Part shown: in pieces, positions 3,972 through 18,268 of the stretch
Numbering within the stretch: the first letter of the stretch is position 1
Layout: each line of letters starts with the position of its first letter
NCBI GenBank assembly: GCA_003220315.1
Contig: QHSA01000164.1
Coordinates: forward strand, 1 to 32,740
Source of the DNA: Candidatus Rokuibacteriota bacterium
Lineage (GTDB): Bacteria > Methylomirabilota > Methylomirabilia > Rokubacteriales > CSP1-6
Direction of reading: 5' to 3'
DNA: 32,740 bases
Notes under the pieces: model-generated
Database searches by the model: none
Seen by the model: only the letters and a program-made list of their open reading frames with translations
What the model was told of the DNA's origin: nothing
Position numbers and translations under genes: made by a program

Positions 3972-5525
3972 TTATCCGAGGAACCTCGTCCGGAAATTCC
4001 TGAGGGCGCGGCTCGCCTGGACCCGCCGGCGGAGGGCCCGGTCGATCGCGCGCGGCCCGGTGAGCGCCGGCGGAGCCAGGATCCGGGTGAGCTCCCGGGG
4101 CGTCATCAACCCGTGCTCGAGCACGACGTCGCGGACCGCGACGCCCCGCGCCTGTGCCTGCTTGACGACCTCCGCGGTGACGTCGTAGCCGAGATAGGGC
4201 GAGAGCGCCGTGGCCTCGACACGGCTCCGCGCGAGGAGCTCGCCCACCCGGGTGCGGTCCACCCGGAGCCCGGCGATGCACCGCGTCCGCAATAACCGCG
4301 TCGCCCGGGTCAGAAGCTCGAGGCTCTCGGCGAGGTTCGTGGCGCAGAGCGGTGTCATCACGTTGAGCTCGAGCTCGCCCGCCGCGGCCGCCAGCGCGAT
4401 CGCGTGGTCGTTGGCCGCTACCTGGAAGCACGCCATCTGGACCGCCTCGGCCACGGAGGGGTTGACCTTGCCGGGCATGATCGACGACCCCGGCTCGACC
4501 TCAGGGAGACGCAGCTCGCCGAGGCCCGCCGCGGGTCCGGAGGCGAGAAGCCGCAGGTCGAAGCAGATCTTGCCGAGGTCTACGGCGAGGGCGCGCAGCG
4601 CGCCCGAGCACGCCAGGATCGGCCGCAAGCTCCACGTCGCCGTGACCGCGCTCGGCGCCGGGCGCAGGCGCCGGCCCGTGATCCGGGAGAGCTCGCGGAC
4701 GACCAGGACGCGGAAGCGCGGGTGCGCCGTCAGCCCGGTGCCCACCGCCGTGCCGCCCAGGCCCACGGCGTCGAGCTCCGCCTCGGTGGCCCGCAGCGCG
4801 GCTCCGGCTGCGCGGATCGCCTCGGCCCAGCCCGCGAACACCTGCCCGTACGTGATCGGGACCCCGTCTTGGAGGTGGGTGCGCCCGACCTTCACGACCG
4901 CCCGCTCGCGGCGGGCGAGCCGGGCGAGCGCGCGCTGGAGGGCGCCGAGCTCGTCGTGGAGTGCCGGGAGCAGCTCGAGCGCCATCAGACGGATGGCGGT
5001 AGGCGTCACGTCGTTCGACGACTGGGCGAGGTTCACGTGATTGTTGGGGTGGATCGGTGCCCAGCGCCCGCGCCGGCCGCCGAGCCGCTCGTTGGCCAGG
5101 TTCGCGATGACCTCGTTCACATTCATGTGGGTGGGTGTGCCGGCGCCAGCCTGGAACGGGTCGAGCACGGCGACGTCCGGGACCGTTCCGTCGGCGACGC
5201 GAGCGGCCGCCCAGACGATGGCGCGCGCCCACCCGCGGGGGAGAAGGCCGAGCCTCGCGTTCGCCCGCGCCGCCGCCGCCTTGACGTGCGCGTAGGCGCG
5301 GATCAGCGCCGGGTGGGGCGCGCGCCGGGAGAGCTGGAACGTCTCGCGCGCGCGCTGGGTGAAGGCGCCGTAGAGCGCCCGCGCCGGGACGTCCTTGACG
5401 CCGAGGCTGTCGCGCTCTCGGCGGATCCTCGCTACGCGCCGAATTTGGTCAGCCGGAGCGCGTTGGCCATGACGAGTGGCATCAGGTGGTGCGACGGGAG
5501 GACGCCGAGGCTGCCGGCCGCGCAC
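3972..5525 (-). CDS. aspartase/fumarase superfamily lyase (aspartate ammonia-lyase or class II fumarase-like)
   Basis: Superfamily hallmarks are in order: AGAGTPTHMNVNEV (about residues 126-139), NNHVNLAQSSND (161-172), the catalytic-base region GRTHLQD (214-220) and the signature GSSIMPGKVNP (346-356) on the mobile substrate loop. Members eliminate ammonia from aspartate or water from malate to give fumarate; the motifs are intermediate, so I do not choose. Conserved sequence begins only at about residue 34 (RIRRERDSLG), downstream of the apgM stop. No ATG, GTG or TTG lies between the GTG at 5525 and that point, nor for many codons after it. The 5525 start therefore implies a 94-base overlap with the mutase gene; otherwise a rare start such as the in-frame ATT at 5444 is used. 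The length of 517 aa is somewhat over the usual 460-470. Confidence 0.85.
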   Translation of the reverse strand: MRGRQPRRPPVAPPDATRHGQRAPADQIRRVARIRRERDSLGVKDVPARALYGAFTQRARETFQLSRRAPHPALIRAYAHVKAAAARANARLGLLPRGWARAIVWAAARVADGTVPDVAVLDPFQAGAGTPTHMNVNEVIANLANERLGGRRGRWAPIHPNNHVNLAQSSNDVTPTAIRLMALELLPALHDELGALQRALARLARRERAVVKVGRTHLQDGVPITYGQVFAGWAEAIRAAGAALRATEAELDAVGLGGTAVGTGLTAHPRFRVLVVRELSRITGRRLRPAPSAVTATWSLRPILACSGALRALAVDLGKICFDLRLLASGPAAGLGELRLPEVEPGSSIMPGKVNPSVAEAVQMACFQVAANDHAIALAAAAGELELNVMTPLCATNLAESLELLTRATRLLRTRCIAGLRVDRTRVGELLARSRVEATALSPYLGYDVTAEVVKQAQARGVAVRDVVLEHGLMTPRELTRILAPPALTGPRAIDRALRRRVQASRALRNFRTRFLG

Positions 5526-6643
5526 GCCCGCTCGGTGAAGGCGGTCACCGGATCCGCGCCGCAGTAGCGGCTCCAGAGGAGCACGGGCACCGGCTGCCAG
5601 CCGTGCGCGGCGAGCACCGACGGCGTCGCGTGGTCGCCCGTCACCACGAGGACATCCGGCTTGAGTGCCCGAATGTCGGGGACGGAGGCGTCGAGGCGCT
5701 CGAGGGCGGCGACCTTGGCGCCGAAGTCGCCGTCCTCGCCCGCCTTGTCCGTGTCCTTGTAGTGCAGGAAGAAGAAGTCGTACGCGTCCCAGTGCTCGCG
5801 GAGCGTCCTGAGCTCCTCGCCGAACGTGCCGCCCGTCTTGAGCACCTCCATGCCCACGAGCTTGGCGAGCCCGCGGTACATCGGATAGGCGGCGATCGCC
5901 GCGGGGCGGAGACCGAAGACCTCGGGAAAGCGCGGGAGCCTGGGGAGCCGGTCGAAGCCTCGCAGCAGGACCATGTTAGCGGGCGCCGCGTCGGCGAGCC
6001 GGCGGCGCGCGCCGGCGACGAACGCATTCACCCGCTGCGCCGACGCCTTCGCTTTCGGCTCGAGCGGCTTCACGGGAAGGGGGGCCCGGCCGAGCGCCTG
6101 CGGGTCGGTCTCGGAGAGCCGGCCCGAGAGTCCGCCCGCCTTGCCTCGGCCGCGCAGGACCAGGACGAAGCGGTGCTCCTTCACGGGCTCGACGAACAGC
6201 TCGACGCCCGGTAGCGGGATCCCCCGGAGCCGCTCGGTCAGGCGCACGCAGACCTCGGTGGGGATGCGCCCCGCGCGCCGGTCGGTGATGCGACCGGTGG
6301 AGTCAACGGTGCAGAAGTTGCCGCGCGCGGCCACATCGCCCGGGCGGAGGTCGAACTCGATCCCAAGGGCCTCGAGGACGCCGCGCCCGACCTGGTAGCG
6401 GAGCGGGTCGTAGCCGAAGAGCCCGAGGTGCCCGGGCCCGCTGCCGGGCGTGATCCCCGGCGCCACGTGGCGGATGAGACCGCACGCCGACTCGGCGGCG
6501 AGCGCCGCGAGGTTCGGCAGGCGCGCGGTCTCGAGCTCGGAGCGGCCGGTCTCGGGGCGCGGCAGGCCCCCCAGGCCGTCGAGCGAGAGCACGACGATCT
6601 TCGTGGTGTTCTGGACGACGAGCGGCGCGATCAGCTCCAGCAT
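5432..6643 (-). CDS. apgM: 2,3-bisphosphoglycerate-independent phosphoglycerate mutase, archaeal type
   Basis: The 403-aa length matches the ApgM family of the alkaline phosphatase superfamily. VVLSLDGLGG (residues 17-26) provides the first metal-binding Asp. GSGPGHLGLFGYDP carries the presumed phosphorylated Ser (68). HYKDTDKAGEDGD and VVTGDHATPS near the C-terminus supply the remaining metal-site Asp and His residues. It interconverts 3- and 2-phosphoglycerate in glycolysis and gluconeogenesis. The ATG at 6643 lies 13 bases after the stop of the fumarylacetoacetase-like gene, with a GGAGG further upstream, and the 3' end is overlapped by the lyase frame. The enzyme is common in archaea and some bacteria and often replaces GpmA or GpmI; whether others exist in this genome is unknown. 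Confidence 0.92.
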   Translation of the reverse strand: MLELIAPLVVQNTTKIVVLSLDGLGGLPRPETGRSELETARLPNLAALAAESACGLIRHVAPGITPGSGPGHLGLFGYDPLRYQVGRGVLEALGIEFDLRPGDVAARGNFCTVDSTGRITDRRAGRIPTEVCVRLTERLRGIPLPGVELFVEPVKEHRFVLVLRGRGKAGGLSGRLSETDPQALGRAPLPVKPLEPKAKASAQRVNAFVAGARRRLADAAPANMVLLRGFDRLPRLPRFPEVFGLRPAAIAAYPMYRGLAKLVGMEVLKTGGTFGEELRTLREHWDAYDFFFLHYKDTDKAGEDGDFGAKVAALERLDASVPDIRALKPDVLVVTGDHATPSVLAAHGWQPVPVLLWSRYCGADPVTAFTERACAAGSLGVLPSHHLMPLVMANALRLTKFGA

Positions 6644-6656
6644 CGATCGCGCCCGC

Positions 6657-7559
6657 TCACGCCTCCTTCACCGGGTTCTCGAGCCGCCCGAGCCCGGTGA
6701 TCTCCATTGTGACGACGTCACCCGGCTGGAGGTACACGGGCGGCTTCTTGCCGAGCCCGACGCCGGGCGGCGTTCCGGTGGCGATGAGATCGCCGGGCGC
6801 GAGCGTCATCAGCCCCGAGAGATAGCTCACGAGGTAGCGGACGTCGAAGATGAACGTCTTCGTGTTGCCGCTCTGCATCTGCTTGCCGTTCACCCAGGTC
6901 CGGAGCTCGAGGGCGTGTGGGTCGGTGATCTCCTTCCGGTCGGCGATGTAGGGGCCGACGGGCGCCGCAGTCTCGAAGATCTTCCCGGCCATCCACTGGC
7001 TCGTGATGAACTGGAAGTCCCGCGCGCTCGCGTCGTTGATGATCGTGTACCCCCACACGTAGTCGAGCGCCTGCTCTCTGGCGACGAAACGCGCCGTGCG
7101 GCCGATGACCACGCCCAGCTCGACCTCCCAGTCGAGCTGCTGAGAGCCGCGCGGCCTCAGGATGGGCTCGCCCGGGTCGCGGATCGAGTTCGACCACTTG
7201 GCGAAGATCGGTGGCTCCTTGGGAATCGGGTTGCCCGTCTCTTCGGCGTGATCCCGGTAGTTGAGGCCGATGCAAATGAACTTCCCCGGATCGGCGATCG
7301 GCGCGTGGAGGCGAGCGCTCGCGGCGGGTACGGTGACCCACTCGCTGATCGAGAGGACGGCCTCCTCGGCGGCGGCGCCGCCCTCGAGGAAGCCGCGCGT
7401 GCTCTGCGGCACCAGGGCCGCGGCGATCTCCCGAGCCCGTACGACGCCGCGCCGGGTGAGGGTAGCGGCAAGGCTTGCCTCGAGGTCGGCGATGCGATCG
7501 CCCCGAAGCGCGCCGAGGCGGGGGGACTGTTCGTTGGTGGAGAAGCGGACGAGCTTCAT
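6657..7559 (-). CDS. fumarylacetoacetate hydrolase (FAH) family protein
   Basis: From the ATG at 7559 the protein has 300 aa. FICIGLNYRDHAEETG (residues 94-109) is the family entry motif. DWEVELGVVIG carries metal ligands Glu145 and Glu147, and INDASARD carries Asp176. TGTPPGVG near the C-terminus is the usual oxyanion/lid segment. Family members are metal-dependent hydrolases or decarboxylases acting on 2-oxo acids: fumarylpyruvate hydrolase, acylpyruvase, oxaloacetate decarboxylase or 2-keto-3-deoxy sugar-acid enzymes. The substrate is not readable here. An upstream in-frame start at 7592 exists, but a GGAGG site at 7569-7573, nine bases before 7559, decides for the shorter form. It is the first gene of the minus-strand operon. 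Confidence 0.88.
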   Translation of the reverse strand: MKLVRFSTNEQSPRLGALRGDRIADLEASLAATLTRRGVVRAREIAAALVPQSTRGFLEGGAAAEEAVLSISEWVTVPAASARLHAPIADPGKFICIGLNYRDHAEETGNPIPKEPPIFAKWSNSIRDPGEPILRPRGSQQLDWEVELGVVIGRTARFVAREQALDYVWGYTIINDASARDFQFITSQWMAGKIFETAAPVGPYIADRKEITDPHALELRTWVNGKQMQSGNTKTFIFDVRYLVSYLSGLMTLAPGDLIATGTPPGVGLGKKPPVYLQPGDVVTMEITGLGRLENPVKEA

Positions 7560-7591
7560 GGCTAGCGGCCTCCAGACAGAAGTAGTGGCCA

Positions 7592-7617
7592 ATTATAGCC
7601 TTTCGCGAATTTTCGCG
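7592..7617 (-). promoter_or_regulatory. promoter with perfect TATAAT and TTTCGCG repeats for the FAH-family operon
   Basis: On the minus strand TATAAT (7597-7592) is a perfect -10 box, about 33 bases before the ATG at 7559. No good -35 box is seen at the right distance. Instead there are two direct copies of TTTCGCG (plus strand 7601-7607 and 7611-7617), the first forming the palindrome TTCGCGAA (7602-7609). This suggests an activator- or repressor-bound promoter. The regulator is unknown. Confidence 0.5.
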
Positions 7618-7687
7618 CCGCGAGCCGTTTGAGATATGCTGGGTGTCTCCAGATGCTAAGGCTCACCCGCGACCAGGAGGTCATCCG

Positions 7688-8296
7688 ATGAGGCTCGCGA
7701 CTCGGTCGATCGCGTTCGCGGTCGTGGTGTCGCTGCTCGGCTCGGGTCCGCTCGCGACGTTTGCCCGCGCGCAGCAACCGGCGCAGCCGCCCGCCGAGCA
7801 GCCGGTGCCACAACCCGAGCAGCCGGCGCCACAGCCCGAGCAGCCGGCGCAGCCCGCCGAGCAGGCCGCGCCACAGCCCGCCGAGCAGGCCGCGCAAGCG
7901 GCGCCGCCACCCGTGCAGCCCGCCGAACAGCCCGCACAGGCCGCGCCGCAGCCGGCACCACAGCCCGCCGCACAGCCCCAGCCCGCGCCGACGGCCGCCG
8001 GAGAGCCGCAGGTCGTGCAGGAGCCGGTCACGTTCGAGGAGCCCTCCGAGGGGACGGCGTGGTACGCGATGGGTGCCACCGTCTTGAATGTCGTGTACGT
8101 CCCGGGAAAGGCCATCACCTGCGTCCTGGGGATGGTCGTCGGCGGCGGCTTGCTCCTCGCCACGCTCGGCGCCGGCTACAAGGGCTCCGTGGCCTTCTTC
8201 AAGGAAGGGTGCGGGGGCAAGTGGATCCTGACGGCCAAGGATCTCAGGGGGACCGACTGGATCCTCGGCACCGGCGAGCGCCCCGAGTCGAATTAG
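7688..8296 (+). CDS. exported Pro/Gln/Ala/Glu-rich protein with conserved C-terminal membrane domain
   Basis: The start at 7688 is supported by AGGAGG about eight bases upstream; an in-frame start at 7643 lacks such a site. The 202-aa product has a signal peptide (residues 1-28, likely cut after ARA). A low-complexity linker of Pro, Gln, Ala and Glu runs from about 29 to 101. The compact C-terminal domain contains the segment GKAITCVLGMVVGGGLLLATLGAGYKG, probably membrane-inserted, and an EGCGGKW motif. The two Cys could pair. The C-terminal domain looks like a small conserved family in uncultured GC-rich bacteria, but I know of no function. The linker suggests spanning peptidoglycan or extending into the periplasm. 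The CusF-like frame begins at its stop codon. Confidence 0.75.
   Translation: MRLATRSIAFAVVVSLLGSGPLATFARAQQPAQPPAEQPVPQPEQPAPQPEQPAQPAEQAAPQPAEQAAQAAPPPVQPAEQPAQAAPQPAPQPAAQPQPAPTAAGEPQVVQEPVTFEEPSEGTAWYAMGATVLNVVYVPGKAITCVLGMVVGGGLLLATLGAGYKGSVAFFKEGCGGKWILTAKDLRGTDWILGTGERPESN
7772..7990 (+). repeat. degenerate in-frame repeat coding QPAEQ/QPAPQ units
   Basis: The DNA is built of CAGCCCGCC/GAGCAG-like units with irregular spacing that code for variants of Q-P-A-E-Q and A-P-Q-P. The units stay in frame, so this is a coding low-complexity array, not a spacer-repeat array. Replication slippage here would change linker length between strains. Confidence 0.8.
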
Positions 8297-8390
8297 TCGA
8301 CGCGTTCTCGTCGCGCTGCTCTTCATCGCCCTGCTCGCGGCGTTCGCCGCCGGCATCTGGGGCACCGTCCTTCGGCCCGCCGCGTACGAG

Positions 8391-8609
8391 GTGCGGGGCA
8401 CCATCGTGGCGCGCCCCGCGCCGGATCTCGTCCTCGTCAGCCACGACGCCGTGCAGGGGCTCGGGATGGGCGCCATGGAGCTGATGGCGATCGCCGCCGA
8501 GCCGGCGCTGCTCGACGCCGTGGGCCCGACGCCCGGCGACCGTGTCAGGCTTGCCGTCCGGGCGACCGGCGAGCGGCTCGTCCTGCTCCGCATTGAGCGG
8601 ATCCCCTGA
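8391..8609 (+). CDS. CusF-like periplasmic metal-binding domain protein (N-terminus extends upstream of the first normal start)
   Basis: The only in-frame ATG/GTG start is the GTG at 8391, giving 72 aa. The fold pattern is CusF-like: RGTIVARPAPDLVLVSHDAV, GLGMGAMELMAIAAEPALL, GDRVRLAVRATGERLVLLRIE. This matches the small beta-barrel of copper/silver chaperones, with a Met-rich MGAMELM stretch where CusF has PAMTM. The open frame continues upstream to about 8292 and encodes a hydrophobic leader (VLVALLFIALLAAFAAGIWG) directly ahead of this domain, so the real protein is probably about 105 aa and exported. No ATG, GTG or TTG precedes that leader; an ATT at 8292, overlapping the upstream TAG, or a CTG is possible. 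Convergent with the cytochrome c gene. Confidence 0.6.
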   Translation: MRGTIVARPAPDLVLVSHDAVQGLGMGAMELMAIAAEPALLDAVGPTPGDRVRLAVRATGERLVLLRIERIP

Positions 8610-8630
8610 CTCAGCGCGCGCGGCTGAGTC
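8608..8630. terminator. hairpin enclosing both convergent stop codons
   Basis: GACTCAGC (8608-8615) and GCTGAGTC (8623-8630) form a perfect 8-bp stem with a 7-base GC loop. The left arm holds part of the TGA of the CusF-like gene and the stop of the cytochrome gene read on the other strand. There is no T tract, so it may act as a bidirectional pause, a Rho-related site or an mRNA 3'-end protector. Confidence 0.45.
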
Positions 8631-8991
8631 CGCGCACGTAGGCGACGAGCTCGCGGATCTCCTCGTCCGACAACGCGGCGCCGAAGGCCGGCATGCCGGG
8701 ACGCCCGATCGGCGCGCCACCGTTCTTGATGATGTCGACCAGGTACTGGTCCGAGCGCTGATCGAGGCGCGCGGCGTCGGCGAGGTTCCCGGGACGGATC
8801 AGGAAGAGGGAGGCGCGCCAGGAGCCCCGCCCGTCCGGGCCGTGGCACGTCACGCAGAGCCCGTAGTAGAGGCGCTCGCCACGCGAGGCACCGCGCGGCG
8901 GACGCGGCGTGTCGAGCAGCGCGGCGAGGCCCGCCGTGAAGACGCCAATCGCCGCGATCGCGAGGACGAGGGCCAGGAGCGGCCGCCGCAT
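8611..8991 (-). CDS. membrane-anchored or secreted class I cytochrome c
   Basis: The 126-aa protein begins with a hydrophobic export segment (residues 3-24). It carries one haem-binding motif, CVTCH (46-50), followed by GPDGRG. Met100 in GRPGMPAFG is the likely sixth haem ligand. The C-terminal helix LSDEEIRELVAYVRGL is typical of small mono-haem c-type cytochromes. It would transfer electrons in the periplasm; the partner is not encoded nearby. The start is ATG at 8991. The gene converges on the CusF-like gene with one base between stops and diverges from the sugar transporter operon. Confidence 0.9.
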   Translation of the reverse strand: MRRPLLALVLAIAAIGVFTAGLAALLDTPRPPRGASRGERLYYGLCVTCHGPDGRGSWRASLFLIRPGNLADAARLDQRSDQYLVDIIKNGGAPIGRPGMPAFGAALSDEEIRELVAYVRGLSRAR

Positions 8992-9006
8992 GGCGTCGAG
9001 GATAAG

Positions 9007-9049
9007 GCGGAAATACCGCTTGACAAACTGGCTCCCAAACGGATAAAAA
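9007..9049 (+). promoter_or_regulatory. sigma70 promoter of the plus-strand sugar ABC operon
   Basis: A perfect TTGACA (9020-9025) is followed 16 bases later by GATAAA (9042-9047; a TAAAAA register at 18 bases is also possible). An inverted repeat GCGG-AAATA-CCGC (9007-9019) abuts the -35 box and could be an operator. The -10 is about 70 bases before the binding-protein ATG. Confidence 0.6.
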
Positions 9050-9118
9050 GACTAGCCTTTTCTGTCGTCGAGTATCGTCAGTTCGCCGCCGCTCCCACGA
9101 ATACGATGGAGGCCGACG

Positions 9119-10450
9119 ATGAGTGATTCGCGACTGGTGCAGGCCGACCGCCCCACCGTGACCCGCCGGAGCTTCCTGAAGGTGACCGGCGCCGGCGCCA
9201 CGGGAGGGGCGCTCCTCGCGATGCTCGATGCGCGGCAAGCGCCGGCGCAGCTCAAGGGGACCTCGCTCCGCGTGATCCTATGGTCCCACTTCGTTCCGGC
9301 CTACGACGCCTGGATCGACGATTTCGCCAAGAAGTGGGGCGAGCAGAACGGCGCCACCGTGCGCATCGACCACATCCCGCACCTCGAGCTCCCGGCGCGC
9401 TACGCCGCAGAGTTCGCCGCGGGCGCGGGACACGACCTCATCTACTTCGCGGGCCAGATCCTGACGGGCCAGTACTACAGGCACCTCGTGGACCTCTCCG
9501 ATCTCGCCAACGACCTCGGCACGCGGTACGGCCCGTGGATGCCGAGCGCGAAGAGCGCGGCCCAGGTCGCGGGCGTCTGGTACGCCGTCCCGGACTACTT
9601 CATCTCGATCCCGGTGCTCTGGCGCAAAGATCTCTTCGAGTCGGTCGGGCGCCCCGCGCCGAAGACGTGGGACGACCTGCGCGTCGCGGCGCGGCTGCTC
9701 CGGCCGAAGGGGCATCCGACGGGCATGCAGTTCTCCCACTGCAACGACGCGAACCACAACTGGCGCGCGTTGCTCTATTGCTTCGGCGCCAAGGAGACCG
9801 ATGCGTCCGGGCAGAGCATCGAGCTGGACTCGAAGGAGACGCGCGAGGCGCTCCGCTTCGCCAAGGCGCTGTACGACGAGGGCATGACGCCGGAGGTCTT
9901 TTCCTGGGACGACGCCTCGGACAACCGGTACCTCGCGTCCGGGGTCGCGAGCTGGATCCACGACGCGATCTCGGCGTTCCGGACCACCGAGGACACGAAC
10001 CCCAAGGTCTTCAAGGAGACGTACGTCCTGCCCGAGGCGGCGGGGCCGGGCGGCACCTGGAACGTCGGTGAGCCGAACGTGTGGGCGATCTGGAAGTTCT
10101 CGAAGAACGTCCCCGCGGCCAAGGAGTTCATCTTGGCCGTCGCGAACAGCCAGAAGGAGGCGATGGGGGCGAGCCGCGGCTACAACATGCCGTTCCTCCG
10201 CCGCCGGTACGACAAGCCGATGCCGGGGCTCGGGCAGGACGCGAAGCTCGGGACGCTCCAGGAGCAAGACAAGATCACAGCGTTCTTCGGCCACCCCGGG
10301 CCGATGACGCCCGCCGCGCAGGAGGTGCTCACCACGTTCATCGTCCCCGACATGTTCACGCGCGTGGCGCGCGGCGCGAGCATCGACGAGACCATGAAGT
10401 GGGGCGTGGGGGAGATCCGGCGGATCTACGCCAAGCACAAGGCCACGTAA
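9119..10450 (+). CDS. sugar ABC transporter substrate-binding protein, Tat-exported
   Basis: The 443-aa protein is of the extracellular solute-binding family 1 type. A twin-arginine signal (TRRSFLKV, residues 15-22, then a weakly hydrophobic stretch and AQAPAQ) marks export through Tat. The mature part has the family-1 layout with DLIYFAG near the first hinge, PKTWDDLRVAARLL and VWAIWKFSKNVPAAKEFI. It should capture a carbohydrate or polyol in the periplasm for the permeases just downstream. The substrate is unknown. GGAGG lies six bases before the ATG. It is closely similar along its whole length to the binding protein at 13918, including a shared block around FSWDDASDNRYLASGV. Confidence 0.9.
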   Translation: MSDSRLVQADRPTVTRRSFLKVTGAGATGGALLAMLDARQAPAQLKGTSLRVILWSHFVPAYDAWIDDFAKKWGEQNGATVRIDHIPHLELPARYAAEFAAGAGHDLIYFAGQILTGQYYRHLVDLSDLANDLGTRYGPWMPSAKSAAQVAGVWYAVPDYFISIPVLWRKDLFESVGRPAPKTWDDLRVAARLLRPKGHPTGMQFSHCNDANHNWRALLYCFGAKETDASGQSIELDSKETREALRFAKALYDEGMTPEVFSWDDASDNRYLASGVASWIHDAISAFRTTEDTNPKVFKETYVLPEAAGPGGTWNVGEPNVWAIWKFSKNVPAAKEFILAVANSQKEAMGASRGYNMPFLRRRYDKPMPGLGQDAKLGTLQEQDKITAFFGHPGPMTPAAQEVLTTFIVPDMFTRVARGASIDETMKWGVGEIRRIYAKHKAT

Positions 10451-10454
10451 CCAC

Positions 10455-11438
10455 ATGGGGCACCTCGCCTCGGGCGGCGGCAGGTCGCCCGGGGCTTCGC
10501 TCTCGGTGCCGGTCGGCGGCCGCGCGAAGGCGTTGCCCTGGTGGCGCACCCCGAGCGTTCGCCGCTACCTCTTCGGCTACACGCTGCTCGCCCCGGCGGT
10601 GCTCTACGTCGGCGTCCTGGTGGGCGCGCCCTTCCTCTTCTCGCTCTACCTGGCCCTCAGCGACGCGTCGGTCGGTGCGCCGGTCGCCCGGTTCGTTGGC
10701 CTGGAGAACTTCACCTCCGCGCTCGAGACCGGGGTGTTCTGGACCGCGGTGCGCAACACGCTGGTCTTCACCGTCGGCGCGGCGGTGATGAAGGGGTTCC
10801 TCGGGACCACGCTCGCGTTCCTGCTCGTGCAGCCGTTCAAGGGCCGGCGCGTGGTGCGCGGCCTCGTGGTCATCCCGTTTACCATCCCGATCGCAATCAG
10901 CGTCCTCGGCTGGAAGTGGATGTTCGACTCGCAGTTCAGCGTCCTCAACTGGGCGCTGAGCGGCCTCGGGCTCATCGGCGAATACGGGACCCCGGACTGG
11001 CCGGTGTGGCTCGGGCAGCCGATGCTCGCGCTCGCGTCCGTGATGTTCGTCAACGTCTGGCGGAGCTTCCCGTTCAGCGCGATCGTCCTGCTGGCGGGGA
11101 TGACCTCGGTGAGCCCCGAGATCATCGACGCGGCGAAGGTGGACGGGGCCACCTTCATGCAGCGCTTCCGGAAGATCATCGTGCCGATGATCGCGCCGAT
11201 CCTCTTCGTTGGGGCGGCGTTCGACACGGTCTTCACGCTCTCCGACCTCAGCATCGTCTACCTGCTGACGAACGGCGGGCCCGACGGCGCGACCGAGATC
11301 CTGCCGACGCTCGCCTACAACACCGGGATCCGCGGTGGCGCGCTCGGCCGGGGGGCCGCGATCTCGCTCTTCCTCTTCCCGCTGCTGCTGCCGGCCATGG
11401 TCCTCCTGCTCCGCACCCTCCGTCGGAGGCAGTACTGA
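10455..11438 (+). CDS. sugar ABC transporter permease, MalF/UgpA type
   Basis: The 327-aa inner-membrane protein has six predicted transmembrane segments after a roughly 35-residue cytoplasmic N-terminus; the first is YTLLAPAVLYVGVLVGAPFLF. The EAA loop, which docks onto the ATPase, reads EIIDAAKVDGATFMQRFRKI and keeps the consensus Asp-Gly. It begins four bases after the binding-protein stop. Its TGA overlaps the ATG of the next permease (TGATG), indicating coupled translation of a heterodimeric channel. No ATPase gene follows on this strand. Confidence 0.92.
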   Translation: MGHLASGGGRSPGASLSVPVGGRAKALPWWRTPSVRRYLFGYTLLAPAVLYVGVLVGAPFLFSLYLALSDASVGAPVARFVGLENFTSALETGVFWTAVRNTLVFTVGAAVMKGFLGTTLAFLLVQPFKGRRVVRGLVVIPFTIPIAISVLGWKWMFDSQFSVLNWALSGLGLIGEYGTPDWPVWLGQPMLALASVMFVNVWRSFPFSAIVLLAGMTSVSPEIIDAAKVDGATFMQRFRKIIVPMIAPILFVGAAFDTVFTLSDLSIVYLLTNGGPDGATEILPTLAYNTGIRGGALGRGAAISLFLFPLLLPAMVLLLRTLRRRQY

Positions 11439-12310
11439 TGGCGGTCGTCGCCCAACGGGCGCCCTGGAGCCGCCGCGCCAAGGAGATCCGTCGCCACACC
11501 CTCATCTACGTCGGGCTGACCCCGTACCTGGTCATCGCGGTGTTCCCGATCCTCTGGATGCTGATCACCGCCTTGAAGCAGGAACCGGACCTCTATCGGA
11601 TGGACGTCGTGCCGTTCTGGTTCCACCTGCCGCCGACGCTGAAGAACTTCGAGTTCCTGTTCCAGCGGACGTTCTACGGCGACTGGCTGGTCAATACGCT
11701 GAGTATCTCCCTCTTCGTCTCGGCGATCACGCTGCTGACGGCCGTGCCCGCGGGCTACGCGCTCGCGCGGCTCCGGTTGCCGTTCGCCGAAAACCTGGGG
11801 ATCGCCATCTTCATGACGTATCTCGTGCCGTCGATCATCCTGTTCATCCCGCTCTCGCGGGTCGTGAGCGAGCTCGGCCTCCAGGACACCTGGTGGTCGC
11901 TGGTCGTCGTGTACCCGACCTTCACGATCCCGTTCTGCACCTGGCTCCTCATGGGGTTCTTCAAGACGGTGCCGTTTGAGATCGAGGAGGCGGCGATGAT
12001 CGACGGGTGCGGCCAGTTCGGCGCGCTCCTGCGCGTGGTGCTGCCGGTGAGCTGGCCGGGGGTGATCACGTCGGTGATCTTCTCGTTCACGCTGTCCATG
12101 CAGGACTTCCTCTACTCGCTCGCCTTCGTCTCCATCTCCGAGCAGAAGCCCGTGCCGCTCGGCGTGGCGACGGAGCTGATCCGAGGCGACGTGTACTTCT
12201 GGGGCTCGCTCATGGCGGGCGCGCTGCTCGTCGGGGTACCGGTCGCGATCGTCTACAACCTCTTCCTCGACAAGTTCATCACGGGCATCACGGGAGCCGT
12301 GATCAAGTGA
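11438..12310 (+). CDS. sugar ABC transporter permease, MalG/UgpE type
   Basis: Starting at the ATG that overlaps the previous TGA, the product has 290 aa, the usual MalG length. The same frame is open far upstream, but the sequence there is only the shifted reading of the MalF-type gene. Six membrane segments are visible, the first being TPYLVIAVFPILWMLITALK. The EAA loop is EIEEAAMIDGCGQFGALLRV. It pairs with the preceding permease. The gene ends 40 bases before the cupin start, and the arrangement suggests one transcript. Confidence 0.92.
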   Translation: MAVVAQRAPWSRRAKEIRRHTLIYVGLTPYLVIAVFPILWMLITALKQEPDLYRMDVVPFWFHLPPTLKNFEFLFQRTFYGDWLVNTLSISLFVSAITLLTAVPAGYALARLRLPFAENLGIAIFMTYLVPSIILFIPLSRVVSELGLQDTWWSLVVVYPTFTIPFCTWLLMGFFKTVPFEIEEAAMIDGCGQFGALLRVVLPVSWPGVITSVIFSFTLSMQDFLYSLAFVSISEQKPVPLGVATELIRGDVYFWGSLMAGALLVGVPVAIVYNLFLDKFITGITGAVIK

Positions 12311-12350
12311 CGCGTTCGGGGAGTGCATGCGGCATTGGCGGAGGAGATCG

Positions 12351-12800
12351 ATGAAACTCAAGGGCACGGTCGCAGTCGTGGTCGGGCTGCTCATTCTCGT
12401 GGGGGGCGCGTACGCGCAGGACGCGAAGCCGGCGCAGCCGACGGGCGTCAAGAGCCGGGGCCTCGTGGGCTCTACCGGGGCGATTGCCAGCGTCGCGGTA
12501 TCGGTTCCAGCTGCTCTCTCCGGCCAGGTTGTCGAGTTGGCGCCCGGCGGCCAGAGCGGGAAGCAGAAGAACCTCGCCCCGTCGTTCATCTACGTGCTCG
12601 AAGGCACGCTCGTGATCGAGACCGAGGGCGGGCCGATCGGCGTCTCCGGGATCCAGTACCACGGCGAGGGACAGTCGTACGCCGGCCCGGCCGGTCTCTG
12701 GTACAACATCATGAACACCGGCCAGGCGCCCGCCCGATACCTCATGCTGTTCGTCGCCGCGCCGGGCGCCAAGACGTGGGAGCAGGCGAAGGAAGACTAG
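12351..12800 (+). CDS. secreted cupin-domain protein
   Basis: The ATG at 12351 follows GGAGG closely; an upstream start at 12327 would add Arg-rich residues before the signal peptide. Residues 1-22 form a Sec signal peptide (cut after AYA). The mature 127 residues make a single cupin barrel: ELAPGGQSGKQ, FIYVLEGTLVIETEGG and WYNIMNTGQAPARYLMLFV. The first cupin motif lacks the usual His-x-His, having Lys-Gln-Lys instead, so canonical metal binding is doubtful. A sugar-binding or non-catalytic role is possible. It sits between the permeases and the beta-propeller on the same strand, so a periplasmic accessory function in ligand capture or modification is inferred. Confidence 0.8.
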   Translation: MKLKGTVAVVVGLLILVGGAYAQDAKPAQPTGVKSRGLVGSTGAIASVAVSVPAALSGQVVELAPGGQSGKQKNLAPSFIYVLEGTLVIETEGGPIGVSGIQYHGEGQSYAGPAGLWYNIMNTGQAPARYLMLFVAAPGAKTWEQAKED

Positions 12801-12816
12801 CGCGCCGAGGGGAGCC

Positions 12817-13818
12817 GTGAGGGGCTCTGCGCGCCTCGCCGGGACGGTGCTTCTCGTCTCGGCTACGCTTGCCGGCCCGTCGCGCGCGCAGACCGAAGGC
12901 GACCTCGTCGCGACAGGGGTGCCGCGTCCCCTCCAGCTCGTCGCGGACGGGCCGAGCCTCATCGTCCTGAGCCCCGGCGCGCGCGGGGACGCCGCCGCCG
13001 AGATCTATCGCGTCCCCCTGGACGCCGATCTCCCCGTGGACCTGTCGCGTCAGCCGCGGATCCGGATCCCGCTGGCCGTCTCCTCGGCGGCGACGCTCGG
13101 GAGCCTCGCGCTCGACCCGCGATCGGGCGACCTCTTCCTCGGCGAGGAGAACGGGACGCGGATCTGGCGGCTCTCTCCCGACGAGCGGCTGACGCTCTAT
13201 GCGACCGGGCTCCGCCGCCTCGCCGGCGGCGGGACGCTCGCGTTCGACCGGCTGGGCCGCCTCGTGATCGTCGACTACGCCGACCCGTTCCTCTCGCAGC
13301 CCGAGGAGCGGCCACCCCCCGGCCTCGAGCAGCTCCGCGAAGAAGACTATCGGGGCCCGCTGGTCTTCCGACTCACCTTCGACCCTGCAGTCCCGCTGCC
13401 GCGCCGCCTCGGGCACCTGGCACCGCTGTTCCCCCGCGCCTGGGGTGGCCGGGCGAGCGGGATCGCGCTGCCGCACATGATCTCCCTGGTGGCGCTCGCC
13501 ACCGACGATCTCGTGCTTCTCACGTCGAGCGGCGAGCTCTTCCGCCTCGGCCGCGACGGCGCGTTCGGGCTCGTCACGCGACTCCCGCGTGGCCAGTACA
13601 ACCGCACCCACATGGTGGCGGCGCCGGACGGAACGGTCTTCGTCAGCGGAGGATTCCATGTCGGGAGCGTCTTCCAGGTGTCGCCGGAGGGGGGAGTCAC
13701 GACGCTCGCCAGCAAGATGGCCGATCCCCAGGGCATCGCGCTCGACCACCACGGCTGGCTCTACGTCGCCGAGTCATCCTTCCACCGGATCGTGAGGCTC
13801 CCGATCCCGGGTCGCTGA
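12817..13818 (+). CDS. secreted NHL/SMP-30-like beta-propeller protein
   Basis: A GTG start at 12817, 16 bases after the cupin stop and preceded by GAGGGGAG, gives 333 aa with a signal peptide (about residues 1-24, cut after SRA). The mature protein consists of repeated beta-propeller blades, recognisable as SLALDPRSGDLFLGE, TLAFDRLGRLVIVDYADP, MVAAPDGTVFVSGGF and GIALDHHGWLYVAESSFHRIVRL. Such propellers include gluconolactonase/SMP-30 enzymes, which bind a divalent metal, and non-catalytic NHL binding proteins. I cannot identify a complete metal site. Location downstream of sugar permeases suggests periplasmic action on the same ligand or a derived lactone; that is inference. Confidence 0.75.
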   Translation: MRGSARLAGTVLLVSATLAGPSRAQTEGDLVATGVPRPLQLVADGPSLIVLSPGARGDAAAEIYRVPLDADLPVDLSRQPRIRIPLAVSSAATLGSLALDPRSGDLFLGEENGTRIWRLSPDERLTLYATGLRRLAGGGTLAFDRLGRLVIVDYADPFLSQPEERPPPGLEQLREEDYRGPLVFRLTFDPAVPLPRRLGHLAPLFPRAWGGRASGIALPHMISLVALATDDLVLLTSSGELFRLGRDGAFGLVTRLPRGQYNRTHMVAAPDGTVFVSGGFHVGSVFQVSPEGGVTTLASKMADPQGIALDHHGWLYVAESSFHRIVRLPIPGR

Positions 13819-13836
13819 CCACGCGGGTCGTGCGTG

Positions 13837-13865
13837 TTGACAACACGGCAGGCGCCGCCTAGACT
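13837..13865 (+). promoter_or_regulatory. sigma70 promoter for the second plus-strand binding protein
   Basis: Perfect TTGACA (13837-13842), a 17-base spacer and TAGACT (13860-13865) lie about 52 bases before the ATG at 13918 and 20 bases after the beta-propeller stop. It implies independent expression of this binding protein. Confidence 0.6.
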
Positions 13866-13917
13866 CCCCAGACGTTCCGCTCGTTCACCGTCCGGACCCG
13901 AGCGAGGTGATCCAGGC

Positions 13918-15249
13918 ATGAACGACGACACCGAGACCCCGGCTCCGTCAGACCCGAACCGCCGCGCGTTCCTGAGGCAGACTGGCCTCGGGATCGCTGG
14001 CGCCTCGATCGCCACCATGCTGGCGGCCGGCCAGGCGCCGGCCCAGATCCGGGGGACGAGCCTTCGGATCCTCCAGTGGAGCCATTTCGTCCCCGCCTAT
14101 GACGTCTGGTTCGACAAGTTTGCCCAGGAGTGGGGAGACAAGAACGGGGTCCGGGTGCGGATCGATCGGATCCCGCACCTGGAGCTTCCGTCGCGGCTGG
14201 CCGCCGAGTTCGCGGCGGGGAGCGGCCACGATCTGATCTATTTCGTGGGCACGATCCTCACGGGGCTCTACTATCGGAATCTCGTCGACGTCGGCGATAT
14301 CGCCGAGCGGATCGGCACGCGGTGGGGCGGCTGGCTCCCGGCGGCGATCCCCGTCGCCGTGGTCGAGGGGCGGTGGCACGCGGTGCCGGACTTCTACATC
14401 CTCGCCCCGCTGCTCTGGCGCAAGGACCTGTTCGACCAGAACAACCTCCAGCCGCCCGACACGTGGGAGCTGGCGCGGGTTGCCGGCCGGACGCTGAAGG
14501 CCAAGGGCCACCCCACCGGGCTTGCGTTCTCCCACTGTAACGACGCGAACCTGTTCCTGCGCTCCATCCTCTTCGGCCACGGAGCGCAGGAGGCCGACCC
14601 CTCCGGTCAACAGATCTTGCTCGACTCCAGGGAAACGCGCGAGGGGCTCAAGTTCCTGAAGGCGATGTTCGACGAGGCGATGACGCCCGAAGTCTTCTCC
14701 TGGGACGACGCGTCGGACAACCGATACCTCGCGTCGGGCGTCGCGTGCTGGATCCACGACGCGATCTCGGCCTACCGGACGACGGAGGACACCAATCCGA
14801 CGGTCTTCGCGCACACGCACGTCGGGCTCGAGCCGCAGGGCCTCCCCGGCAAGCGCGTCGCCATCTCGAATCCGAACGCCTACGCCATCTGGAAGTTCTC
14901 GAAGAACGCGCAGGCCGCGAAGGAGTTCCTCATCCATCTCGCCGACAACTGGAAGGACGCCATGGTCGGCAGCCGCGGGTACAACATGCCGTTCCTGCGG
15001 GACGCCTACCGGAAGCCGATGCCCGTGATCGGCACCGACCCCAAGCTGCAGGTCCTCCAGGATTTCCCCAACATCGTCGCGTTCGCCGGCTACCCCGGGC
15101 CGTTCACGCCCGCGATCCAGGAGGTCGTCGCGACGTTCGTGCTCCCGGACATGTGCACGCGGGTGGCCCGGGGCCAGAGCCCGGACGACGCCGTGAAGTG
15201 GGCGATGGGGGAGTACCGGCGGATCTACGCCAAGTACAAGCGGGGCTGA
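13918..15249 (+). CDS. sugar ABC transporter substrate-binding protein, Tat-exported (paralogue of the one at 9119)
   Basis: The ATG at 13918 yields 443 aa, the same length as its paralogue. An upstream in-frame start at 13834 would lie inside the promoter. The twin-arginine motif is NRRAFLRQ (about residues 18-25), with the cut likely after APAQ. By eye, well over half of the aligned residues match the protein at 9119, including WSHFVPAYD, RIPHLELP with one change, and FSWDDASDNRYLASGVA. The C-terminal region ends in MGEYRRIYAKYKRG. No permease follows on this strand; the next genes are convergent permeases on the minus strand. It may deliver ligand to either neighbouring permease pair. Confidence 0.88.
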   Translation: MNDDTETPAPSDPNRRAFLRQTGLGIAGASIATMLAAGQAPAQIRGTSLRILQWSHFVPAYDVWFDKFAQEWGDKNGVRVRIDRIPHLELPSRLAAEFAAGSGHDLIYFVGTILTGLYYRNLVDVGDIAERIGTRWGGWLPAAIPVAVVEGRWHAVPDFYILAPLLWRKDLFDQNNLQPPDTWELARVAGRTLKAKGHPTGLAFSHCNDANLFLRSILFGHGAQEADPSGQQILLDSRETREGLKFLKAMFDEAMTPEVFSWDDASDNRYLASGVACWIHDAISAYRTTEDTNPTVFAHTHVGLEPQGLPGKRVAISNPNAYAIWKFSKNAQAAKEFLIHLADNWKDAMVGSRGYNMPFLRDAYRKPMPVIGTDPKLQVLQDFPNIVAFAGYPGPFTPAIQEVVATFVLPDMCTRVARGQSPDDAVKWAMGEYRRIYAKYKRG

Positions 15250-15253
15250 GGGC

Positions 15254-16117
15254 TCACGCGCCCTCCACCATCGCCGCGGTGAGGCCGCGCACGTACCCCC
15301 GCGCGAAGAGCGCGCAGGCGGTCGCGACGGGGATGGCGGCGAGGTTCACGCCCGCCACCGCGACCAGCTCCTCGAGGCTCACGTCCATCACGCCGAGCCC
15401 GGCCGCGACCGTCTGCCGCGTCGGATCGAGCAGGAAGATCGACGCGAACATGAAGTCGTTGCCGACGGTGCCGACGGTGAAGAGCGCCGCCGCGACGAGC
15501 ACGTTCCGGCTCATCGGCAGCACGATCCTGAGAAAGGCGGTGGCCGGTGTGGCGCCCTCGACCAGCGCCGACTCCTCGATCTCCCGCGGGAGGTGACGGT
15601 AGTACGCGGAGAGGATCCAGACGCAGAAGGGCAGCGCCATCGTCGAGTAGATGAGGATGAGCGCGCCGTGACTGTCGTCGAGACCGAGGGCGATGAGCAC
15701 CTGGTAGAGGGGGATGAACAGGATCGTGTGGGGCACGACGTAGGTCGCGAAGAGCGCGCGCCGCCACCAGAGCCAGCCCGGGGGTTGGAGTCGACCCAGC
15801 GCGTAGGCGGCGAGCACGCCCGCCACGAGGGTGACCACGAGGCTCGCGCCGAGCACGACGGCGGAGTTGGCGAGCCAGCGGACGAAGGGCACCCGGGGCA
15901 GCACGACGAAGCCGCGGACGCGCGTCCCGGGGCCAGCGAGCAGCTCCGCGTAGTTCTCGACGGTCGGGTCGGCGACGTAGAACGGGCTGCCGAAGACATC
16001 CTCCTGGGGCGTCTTCAGCGACTGCACGGTGATGAAGTAGATCGGGAAGACGCTGTAGGCGGCGACGAGCGCCAGCGCCGCCCCGTGGATCCAGCGCGCG
16101 AGCCGTCCGCGGCTCAC
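15254..16117 (-). CDS. sugar ABC transporter permease, MalG type (third pair)
   Basis: A GTG at 16117 overlaps the TGA of the preceding permease (GTGA), giving 287 aa. The frame is open further upstream only as a shifted reading of that permease. Six membrane segments are visible, starting with IHGAALALVAAYSVFPIYF. The EAA loop reads EIEESALVEGATPATAFLRI. A roughly 30-residue periplasmic insertion is seen early (VENYAELLAGPGTRVRGFVVL). It forms the channel with the gene at 16114 and ends four bases from the convergent binding-protein gene, with a small GAG-GG-CTC inverted repeat at the junction. Confidence 0.9.
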   Translation of the reverse strand: MSRGRLARWIHGAALALVAAYSVFPIYFITVQSLKTPQEDVFGSPFYVADPTVENYAELLAGPGTRVRGFVVLPRVPFVRWLANSAVVLGASLVVTLVAGVLAAYALGRLQPPGWLWWRRALFATYVVPHTILFIPLYQVLIALGLDDSHGALILIYSTMALPFCVWILSAYYRHLPREIEESALVEGATPATAFLRIVLPMSRNVLVAAALFTVGTVGNDFMFASIFLLDPTRQTVAAGLGVMDVSLEELVAVAGVNLAAIPVATACALFARGYVRGLTAAMVEGA

Positions 16118-17055
16118 GCGGGCGCCTCCCGCGGGGGGTCGAACCAGCGGAAGAGGACGGCCAGCGCGAGCAGCAGGAGCGGCACCAGCGACAGCGACCA
16201 GGCGGCCGCCTCGGCGAACTCCCCGCTCCGGATCCCGAGCCAGTAGGCGTAGGTGCCGACGACCGGAAAGATGACGCGGCCGCCCGTGAGCATCCACACG
16301 TTGGCCAGGTCGGCGAAGGCGGTGGTGAACGAGAGGAACACGGCCAGCGCCAGAAACGGACGCAGGAGCGGCAGCGTCACGTGGCGGAAGCGCTGCGCGG
16401 CGCTCCGGGTCTCGAGCCGGGCGTAGTCGAACAGCTCCCTGGGGATCGCGTTGAGCCCGGCCAGGAGGAACACCGCGGTGAACGACGCGCCTCGCCAGAT
16501 GTTGAAGAGCGCGACGGAGGCGAACGTGTAGGCGCCGGCGCCGGCGACCCCGTCCACCGCGTGCTTCCAGTGTCCCACGGCCACGCTGTACGACGTGATG
16601 AGCGGCGGGTTGAGCATCCAGTACCAGGCCACGACCGTCACGCCGCCCGGATATGCCCACGGGAGGAACACCGCCAGGAACACGAGCGCGCGCCCCCGAC
16701 AGGGCCGCGCGAGCAGGAGGGCCAGCGCCACGCCGACCGCGAGCTTGGCGAGGGTGGTGACGACGAAGTAGACGACGGTCGTGGCGAGCGCGCGCCAGAA
16801 GAAGGCGTCGGCCAGCATGGTCCGGTAGTTCGCGACCCCGACAAACGAGCGGCTCTCGGCGCGGCTGGCGAAGCTCGTGAGGCTGATCCAGACCTCCCAG
16901 GCGACCGGGTAGGCGAGGACGCCGAGCACGAGCAGGACCGCCGGGGTGAGCAGCGCGTAGGCGACGAGGATCTCGCGCCGCCGTACGGAGCCGGCCGGCG
17001 CCTGCGCCGGGCCATGAGGAACGGAGCCGGGTCGCACCTGTGTCAGGCCACCCAC
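16114..17055 (-). CDS. sugar ABC transporter permease, MalF type (third pair), with divergent EAA loop
   Basis: The conserved sequence begins at RRREILVAYALLTPAVLLVL. The 5' end is uncertain: in-frame GTG codons occur at 17055 and 17037 and another at 17151. All lie inside two copies of a 63-bp direct repeat and none has a good ribosome site. I use 17055 (313 aa). Six membrane segments follow. The EAA loop reads ELFDYARLETRSAAQRFRHV, lacking the consensus Asp-Gly kept in the other five permeases here. That may alter contact with the shared ATPase. Stop and start overlap with the MalG-type gene downstream. Confidence 0.82.
   Translation of the reverse strand: MGGLTQVRPGSVPHGPAQAPAGSVRRREILVAYALLTPAVLLVLGVLAYPVAWEVWISLTSFASRAESRSFVGVANYRTMLADAFFWRALATTVVYFVVTTLAKLAVGVALALLLARPCRGRALVFLAVFLPWAYPGGVTVVAWYWMLNPPLITSYSVAVGHWKHAVDGVAGAGAYTFASVALFNIWRGASFTAVFLLAGLNAIPRELFDYARLETRSAAQRFRHVTLPLLRPFLALAVFLSFTTAFADLANVWMLTGGRVIFPVVGTYAYWLGIRSGEFAEAAAWSLSLVPLLLLALAVLFRWFDPPREAPA

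Positions 17056-17176: not shown

Positions 17177-18268
<1,092 letters not shown>

Follow-up and report, generated by a model that had tools for sequence, protein, structure and literature searches.

A secreted six-bladed β-propeller and a secreted cupin are, in our reading, periplasmic accessories of one sugar ABC importer: they would be inherited and replaced together with the importer as a cassette, and would act on the ligand or hold it before it reaches the solute-binding protein. We put the probability of this reading slightly above one half (about 0.55). Sugar ABC importers are usually read as a binding protein, permeases and an ATPase; here, two secreted proteins are tied in. The reading draws on five lines of sequence-based support, namely the secretion-type N-termini of both proteins, their predicted folds, the co-occurrence of propeller and permease, the fixed place of the cupin, and the exchange of two versions of the locus (A and B) as a block.

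The window, that is, the whole 32,740-nucleotide stretch of DNA that was analysed, is one complete contig (G000:C301) of a 4.26 Mb genome assembled in 301 contigs at 98% completeness. On its plus strand lie, in order, SBP1, PermA1, PermB1, the cupin, the propeller and SBP2; converging on them from the minus strand are PermB2-PermA2, the MalK-type ATPase, PermB3, PermA3 and SBP3. No RNA elements or tRNAs were found within the window. The features that matter here are as follows.

6657 to 7592, minus strand: FAA-hydrolase family protein; conserved flank, outside the module
8614 to 8991, minus strand: cytochrome c of the cbb3-III type; conserved flank gene close to the left boundary, outside the module
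9119 to 10450, plus strand: SBP1, binding protein of the SBP_bac_1 family (CUT1-like) with a Tat-type signal, version A (Pfam, trees)
10455 to 11438, plus strand: PermA1, ABC permease, BPD_transp_1 (Pfam)
11438 to 12310, plus strand: PermB1, ABC permease, BPD_transp_1 (Pfam)
12351 to 12800, plus strand: secreted single-domain cupin, 149 aa, with a degenerate metal site (Cupin_2, model, alignment)
12817 to 13818, plus strand: secreted six-bladed NHL-type β-propeller, 333 aa, the importer's constant partner (profiles, predicted structure)
13837 to 13865, plus strand: sigma-70-like promoter match TTGACA-17-TAGACT between the propeller stop and SBP2 (consensus match alone)
13918 to 15249, plus strand: SBP2, second binding protein, version-B lineage, 63% identical to SBP1 (Pfam, SBP tree)
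15254 to 16144, minus strand: PermB2, from the second pair of permeases; converges on the propeller and is exchanged with the module (tree)
16114 to 17050, minus strand: PermA2, the partner of PermB2; its start codon is uncertain, the reading frame being open from 17151
17177 to 18268, minus strand: MalK-like ATPase; conserved flank, with an exchange boundary at the 3' end of the gene

The original prediction had placed a secreted cupin and a secreted propeller 3' of the permeases, on the same strand and inside a sugar ABC operon. ORFs and coordinates agree with the first part: 40 bases separate the end of PermB1 (12310) from the cupin ATG (12351), 16 bases separate the end of the cupin stop codon (12800) from the propeller GTG (12817), and a purine-rich ribosome-binding stretch lies immediately 5' of both starts. 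The cupin start at 12351, and not the in-frame ATG at 12327, fits the orthologues. Inspection also bore out the signal-like N-termini, as a hydrophobic N-terminus was seen in 20/20 cupins, followed there by A-x-A-Q-like sites, and in 17/21 propellers, the four misses probably reflecting start-codon choice. The operon claim holds insofar as the pair sits in the SBP1-PermA1-PermB1 unit; however, it sits at the 3' end, and SBP2 has a promoter-like site of its own. Because a consensus promoter match precedes SBP2, the SBP1 unit probably ends with the propeller gene, although a call at 13837-13865 made by consensus match is weak evidence in such organisms.

SBP_bac_1, two BPD_transp_1 permeases and an ATPase with OB_MalK/TOBE_2 were all found above their Pfam cut-offs, so that every part of a CUT1-type importer (binding protein, permease pair and MalK-type ATPase with OB/TOBE) is present. 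The locus differs from other CUT1 importers in its two permease pairs, its shared ATPase and the two secreted accessory proteins inside an exchangeable block. The MalK-type ATPase is presumably common to both permease pairs. The nearest solved relatives of the locus binding protein are of the maltose/sorbitol type, and the CUT1-like binding proteins suggest an oligosaccharide, a glycoside or a polyol as the ligand class.

We followed the module through 57 genomes of the same family as the window, in which a PermB1 orthologue was a permease of 71% identity or more and a propeller was a protein matching a profile model at E up to 1e-10. Absence of the pair from orthologous transporter loci had been named as the outcome that would speak against the original prediction. 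Instead, a PermB1 orthologue was present in 35/57 genomes and the propeller also in 35/57; both occurred in 34, so that the propeller adjoins the permease in 34/35 permease genomes, and the cupin was found in 32/35. Both permease/propeller mismatches were contig ends: in G033 the permease and the cupin are followed by the end of the contig, and G066 has a propeller fragment. Across the 57 family genomes, the propeller was found beside the PermB1 orthologue and nowhere else, with one propeller gene per genome (that of G061 in two pieces). In the remaining 21 of the 57 genomes, we found neither a PermB1 orthologue nor a propeller. Eight module-less loci (L169-L176) were inspected, and 8/8 gave no PermB1, PermB2, cupin or propeller match and kept the flank genes of PermB3, PermA3 and SBP3 type. 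More distant PermB1-like permeases (62-64% identity) had no cupin or propeller match nearby in 3/3 loci inspected. A scan of a genome collection for relatives returned 20/20 loci from Candidatus Rokuibacteriota metagenome-assembled genomes, which does not show a restriction because the pattern prefilter reaches a limited distance.

The cupin behaves differently. It lies between PermB1 and the propeller in 30/30 loci that have all three genes on one fetched stretch, which is the outcome of the proposed search for conserved cupin-propeller-permease neighbourhoods; however, it is on the strand opposite to the permease in 20 of these loci and on the same strand in 10, and in the three genomes of genus g23 the propeller is directly 3' of the permease and no cupin was found. 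On the module trees, 2 to 4 changes suffice to explain the cupin states (same strand, opposite strand, absent). The predicted pairing of cupin and propeller in one operon thus applies to part of the family, and a single cupin-propeller operon as a conserved unit is ruled out by the loci with inverted or absent cupins. Of the two, the propeller accompanies the importer constantly, and the cupin is optional.

The binding protein, permeases, cupin and propeller occur in two diverged versions, A and B, and the flanks are conserved around a block of ~8 kb in which one version is exchanged for the other, an observation that is new here. Compared with G002 of the same genus, nucleotide identity of the window is 89.4% at 5002-9004, 65-79% over pieces spanning 9108-16983, and 94.3% from 17179 onward. 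A second comparison within the genus, with G003, gave 89.9% up to 7809, 74.7% for 8292-12308 and 92.4% from 17179, with a less sharp left boundary. Both comparisons put the right-hand boundary at 17179, where the ATPase gene has its 3' end, and the limits of the exchange coincide with the importer genes. That propeller and cupin are hitchhikers, independent periplasmic proteins lying in the exchanged region by accident, is very unlikely given these matching limits and the exclusive placing of the propeller beside the PermB1 orthologue in the 57 genomes, although a variable cupin orientation and a genus without the cupin would fit it.

Gene trees tell the same story. A single branch separates A from B in those of SBP1, PermA1, PermB1, cupin, propeller and PermB2, with a support of 84 for PermB2 and 99-100 for the other five; the exception in the SBP tree is SBP2, the additional binding protein of the window and G015, which falls on the version-B side. 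The labels A and B were assigned after the synteny table and the first trees; the trees of cupin, PermA1, PermB2 and SBP came later. In the trees of ATPase, FAA and PermB3, genera are mostly clades, and the A/B labels require 8, 6 and 7 changes, respectively, close to the shuffled-label means of 8.4, 6.6 and 6.9. Genera g1, g4 and g18 each contain both versions. AU tests on propeller, PermB1, cupin and PermB2 rejected the genus as a clade in 12/12 cases (p at most 4.2e-4); for the ATPase, where the comparison covered g1 and g18, these genera are clades with support of 99 and 94.

No genome was seen to hold versions A and B together, and for this reason in-place replacement through recombination in the flanks would be the simplest reading of the trees and alignments. 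It is possible that the pattern reflects hidden paralogy instead, with both versions once neighbors and then differentially lost; against this stand the single propeller gene per genome and the lack of any genome with both versions. Mis-binned contigs as a cause of the pattern are excluded where both flanks share one contig (the window, L072 and L075). Within versions, module genes sometimes disagree in detail (G027, for example, groups with different neighbors in the PermB1 tree than in that of the propeller), so the block has probably undergone smaller internal exchanges as well.

Two flanking proteins were considered as parts of the system and set aside. The FAA-hydrolase-type protein lies outside the divergent block and tracks genus phylogeny. 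The cytochrome c likewise lies outside the block, and cytochrome c matches also occur in module-less loci.

Several loci depart from the common layout. The window is a hybrid, a version-A locus that carries an added SBP2 of the version-B lineage; the counterpart of SBP2, seen in G015 alone, belongs to the same lineage. The genome of the window has a further SBP1 relative of 65% identity where another contig begins (G000:C104:6-1238). In most loci, no separate binding protein adjoins PermB2-PermA2 (SBP2 is carried by the window and G015 alone), yet the pair is exchanged with the module. At the G026 locus (L106:7324-7523), the binding-protein gene between cytochrome c and PermA1 is gone, leaving a promoter-like stretch and a ten-codon ORF, and the permeases, cupin and propeller are kept despite this loss; no SBP1 relative above 35% identity was found elsewhere in that genome. 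PermA3 and SBP3 also gave no match at this locus, so an assembly fault is possible there. At two further loci, a TonB-dependent receptor or a BBP2 porin lies between the propeller and PermB2 (L089:6036-8174 and L100:12220-13407) and possibly serves as the outer-membrane entry for the same ligand.

Structure prediction of each protein, which had been proposed as a check, gave a confident six-bladed propeller (pLDDT 82, pTM 0.83, from 21 sequences) and a cupin-like model of moderate confidence. The propeller model matched best to NHL propellers and to the designed Pizza proteins (Z about 25 over ~243 residues, rmsd 2.5), which makes it an NHL-type six-bladed fold on a predicted, not solved, structure. 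Its Pfam matches to NHL, SGL and Vgb were all below threshold. With family profiles at E up to 0.01, ScyD/ScyE matched 21/21 propellers, NHL 17/21 and SGL 11/21. ScyD/ScyE (NCBIfam NF033206) is therefore the best curated family (best E 1e-14), but the window propeller scores 41.8 bits against a cut-off of 80 and falls short of membership. ScyD/E belong to cyanobacterial scytonemin clusters, and the setting here is not such a cluster. The lactonase RPA3624, DFPase and the AA12 dehydrogenase all score within 1.5 Z of the best fold match, so the fold cannot decide the function of the propeller.

Lactone processing, which the original prediction had offered as one role, fared poorly. In this explanation, lactones would be opened before import by the propeller, acting in the periplasm as a sugar lactonase of the SMP-30/gluconolactonase type (SGL; PF08450, SMP-30/gluconolactonase/LRE). 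The propeller shares the six-bladed fold with that family, RPA3624 is a β-propeller lactonase among the fold matches (Z 24.1), and the weak SGL matches reach a best E of 3.4e-5. However, the window propeller scores 15.8 bits against an SGL cut-off of 26.3, and NHL and ScyD/ScyE match more members than SGL does. The metal-binding set of SMP-30/gluconolactonase is Glu/Asn/Asp. The comparison with two SGL proteins from the same genome covers the C-terminal part of the propeller and leaves the N-terminal Glu unaligned; in the part covered, the residue facing their PDG/NG motif is not conserved, being Q, G, E, A or N. We regard a lactonase as improbable.

Less probable still, and in our view hardly credible, is that the propeller works as a PQQ-type dehydrogenase with the adjacent cytochrome c as its electron acceptor. 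An AA12 pyranose dehydrogenase (6i1t) is among the fold matches with Z 23.8, and the cytochrome c gene is 127 bases from SBP1. Nevertheless, many propeller folds share the same Z, no PQQ-dehydrogenase family matched, the cytochrome c is not part of the exchanged block, and in 3/8 module-less loci (L169, L174 and L175) a cytochrome c match is also found on the ATPase side.

The main rival to ligand handling is that the propeller is a non-enzymatic adaptor, assisted by the cupin, through which the binding protein or an uptake route across the outer membrane would dock to the permease. The closest folds include the NHL propellers TRIM, PknD and Thin, several of which bind proteins or RNA, and the propeller travels with both the permease and the binding protein; the TonB receptor and the BBP2 porin between propeller and PermB2 would also fit. 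MalM of the maltose operon, an importer-linked periplasmic protein without known chemistry, would be the nearest case. On the other side, the receptor and the porin each occur in a single locus, and the propeller has 17 invariant polar residues that could equally form a ligand site; among them are R37, D58, E62, E111, N112, R115 and D153, and further invariant residues are R185, R196, R263, D303, E319 and H323. We consider an adaptor unlikely, though less so than a lactonase. More generally, linkage to the importer can mean regulation or scaffolding instead of ligand chemistry.

The window cupin belongs to Cupin_2 (PF07883), which it matches at E 9.6e-9 with 35.3 bits against a cut-off of 27.2. 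Its model (pLDDT 73) has as best fold match a manganese hydroxynitrile lyase at Z 11.8; across the Cupin_2 metal proteins, including the Granulicella hydroxynitrile lyase, TM1459 and DddK, the shared fold gives Z 10.3-11.8 over 89-105 residues, at the moderate confidence of the cupin model. The metal site itself differs from theirs. It is degenerate in the window (Q72, N74, F79, Y118), and Q72, N74 and Y118 stand at the three classical His positions, so that the two motif-1 histidines and the motif-2 histidine of a metal-dependent cupin are not there. The missing His-x-His noted by the original prediction proved general: in transporter-linked cupins, histidine occupies the first classical position in 0/30, the second in 6/30 and the third in 27/30, which means that the first-motif His is lost in 30/30 and the second in 24/30. 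All three are kept in 4/4 secreted paralogues without transporter linkage; such secreted paralogues, in which the HxH...H motif is intact, lie at L092, L093, L094 and L095, where no gene of the importer adjoins them. Judged by alignment, the classical cupin metal site is gone. His104, at a new position, is invariant in 30/30 transporter-linked cupins, and a different metal site in the cupin is possible.

The residence of propeller and cupin in an importer cassette that is exchanged as a block points to the two secreted proteins helping to handle the imported sugar outside the cell membrane. Judging by analogy, their role would most likely be periplasmic ligand conditioning for the binding protein, so that the presentation or modification of the ligand suggested by the original prediction is still the most plausible idea. 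The importer would consist of SBP1-PermA1-PermB1 with PermB2-PermA2 as a second permease pair and a shared MalK-type ATPase, and propeller and cupin would act on the periplasmic ligand, or hold it, ahead of the binding protein. The leading part, and the essential step, would fall to the propeller; in the simplest form, it would interconvert forms of the ligand in the manner of an anomerase or mutarotase, the activity that NanM has on sialic acid. Having lost its classical metal ligands, the cupin may be a dispensable aid in binding or anomer handling. A fixed cupin-propeller complex is not required, as the cupin is inverted in 20/30 loci and absent from three genomes. A bolder version, in which importer specificity is swapped within a genus as the ~8 kb A/B cassette with a metal-free cupin, and the propeller represents a new, indispensable class of periplasmic sugar-form enzyme, seems doubtful to us.

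PMC8141875 describes NanM (YjhT) as a periplasmic, Kelch-related β-propeller that is a sialic-acid anomerase, and YhcH (DUF386) as a second sialic-acid anomerase, a cytoplasmic metalloprotein. Within what that source presents, the likeness is that of a periplasmic β-propeller tied to sugar uptake, alongside a second protein that handles open and cyclic forms (the feature of YhcH). The cupin differs from YhcH in being secreted and in having lost the classical metal ligands, and NanM serves another type of importer. Kelch proteins are the relatives of NanM, and profile searches here at E up to 0.1 and 1 matched neither a Kelch nor a NanM model, so the analogy is one of role, not of family. The original prediction had called a pair of periplasmic proteins attached to an importer a nonstandard arrangement; this is true in part, but with NanM a periplasmic propeller anomerase already serves a sugar importer. 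Literature searches of incomplete coverage returned no paper joining Rokubacteria, ABC transporter and cupin, and none joining cupin and β-propeller with a periplasmic ABC solute-binding protein.

In soil proteomes from a Rokubacteria-rich site, sugar and amino-acid ABC transporters were among the most abundant proteins, which the passage in question does not assign to Rokubacteria (PMC6784897). Comparative genetics gives an "uncharacterized propeller" a place in an uptake system of uncultured soil bacteria where its part can be tested, and the natural A/B swaps are a means to learn which importer parts must match.

A search of 95 genomes of the phylum gave, outside the family, one split propeller gene (G038) and six genomes with short partial matches. 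The G038 gene, which encodes a propeller relative 35-40% identical and comes from a different family within the order, is split by contig ends (the end of L098 and the start of L099). It is not beside an SBP-permease operon and possibly represents a pre-transporter form.
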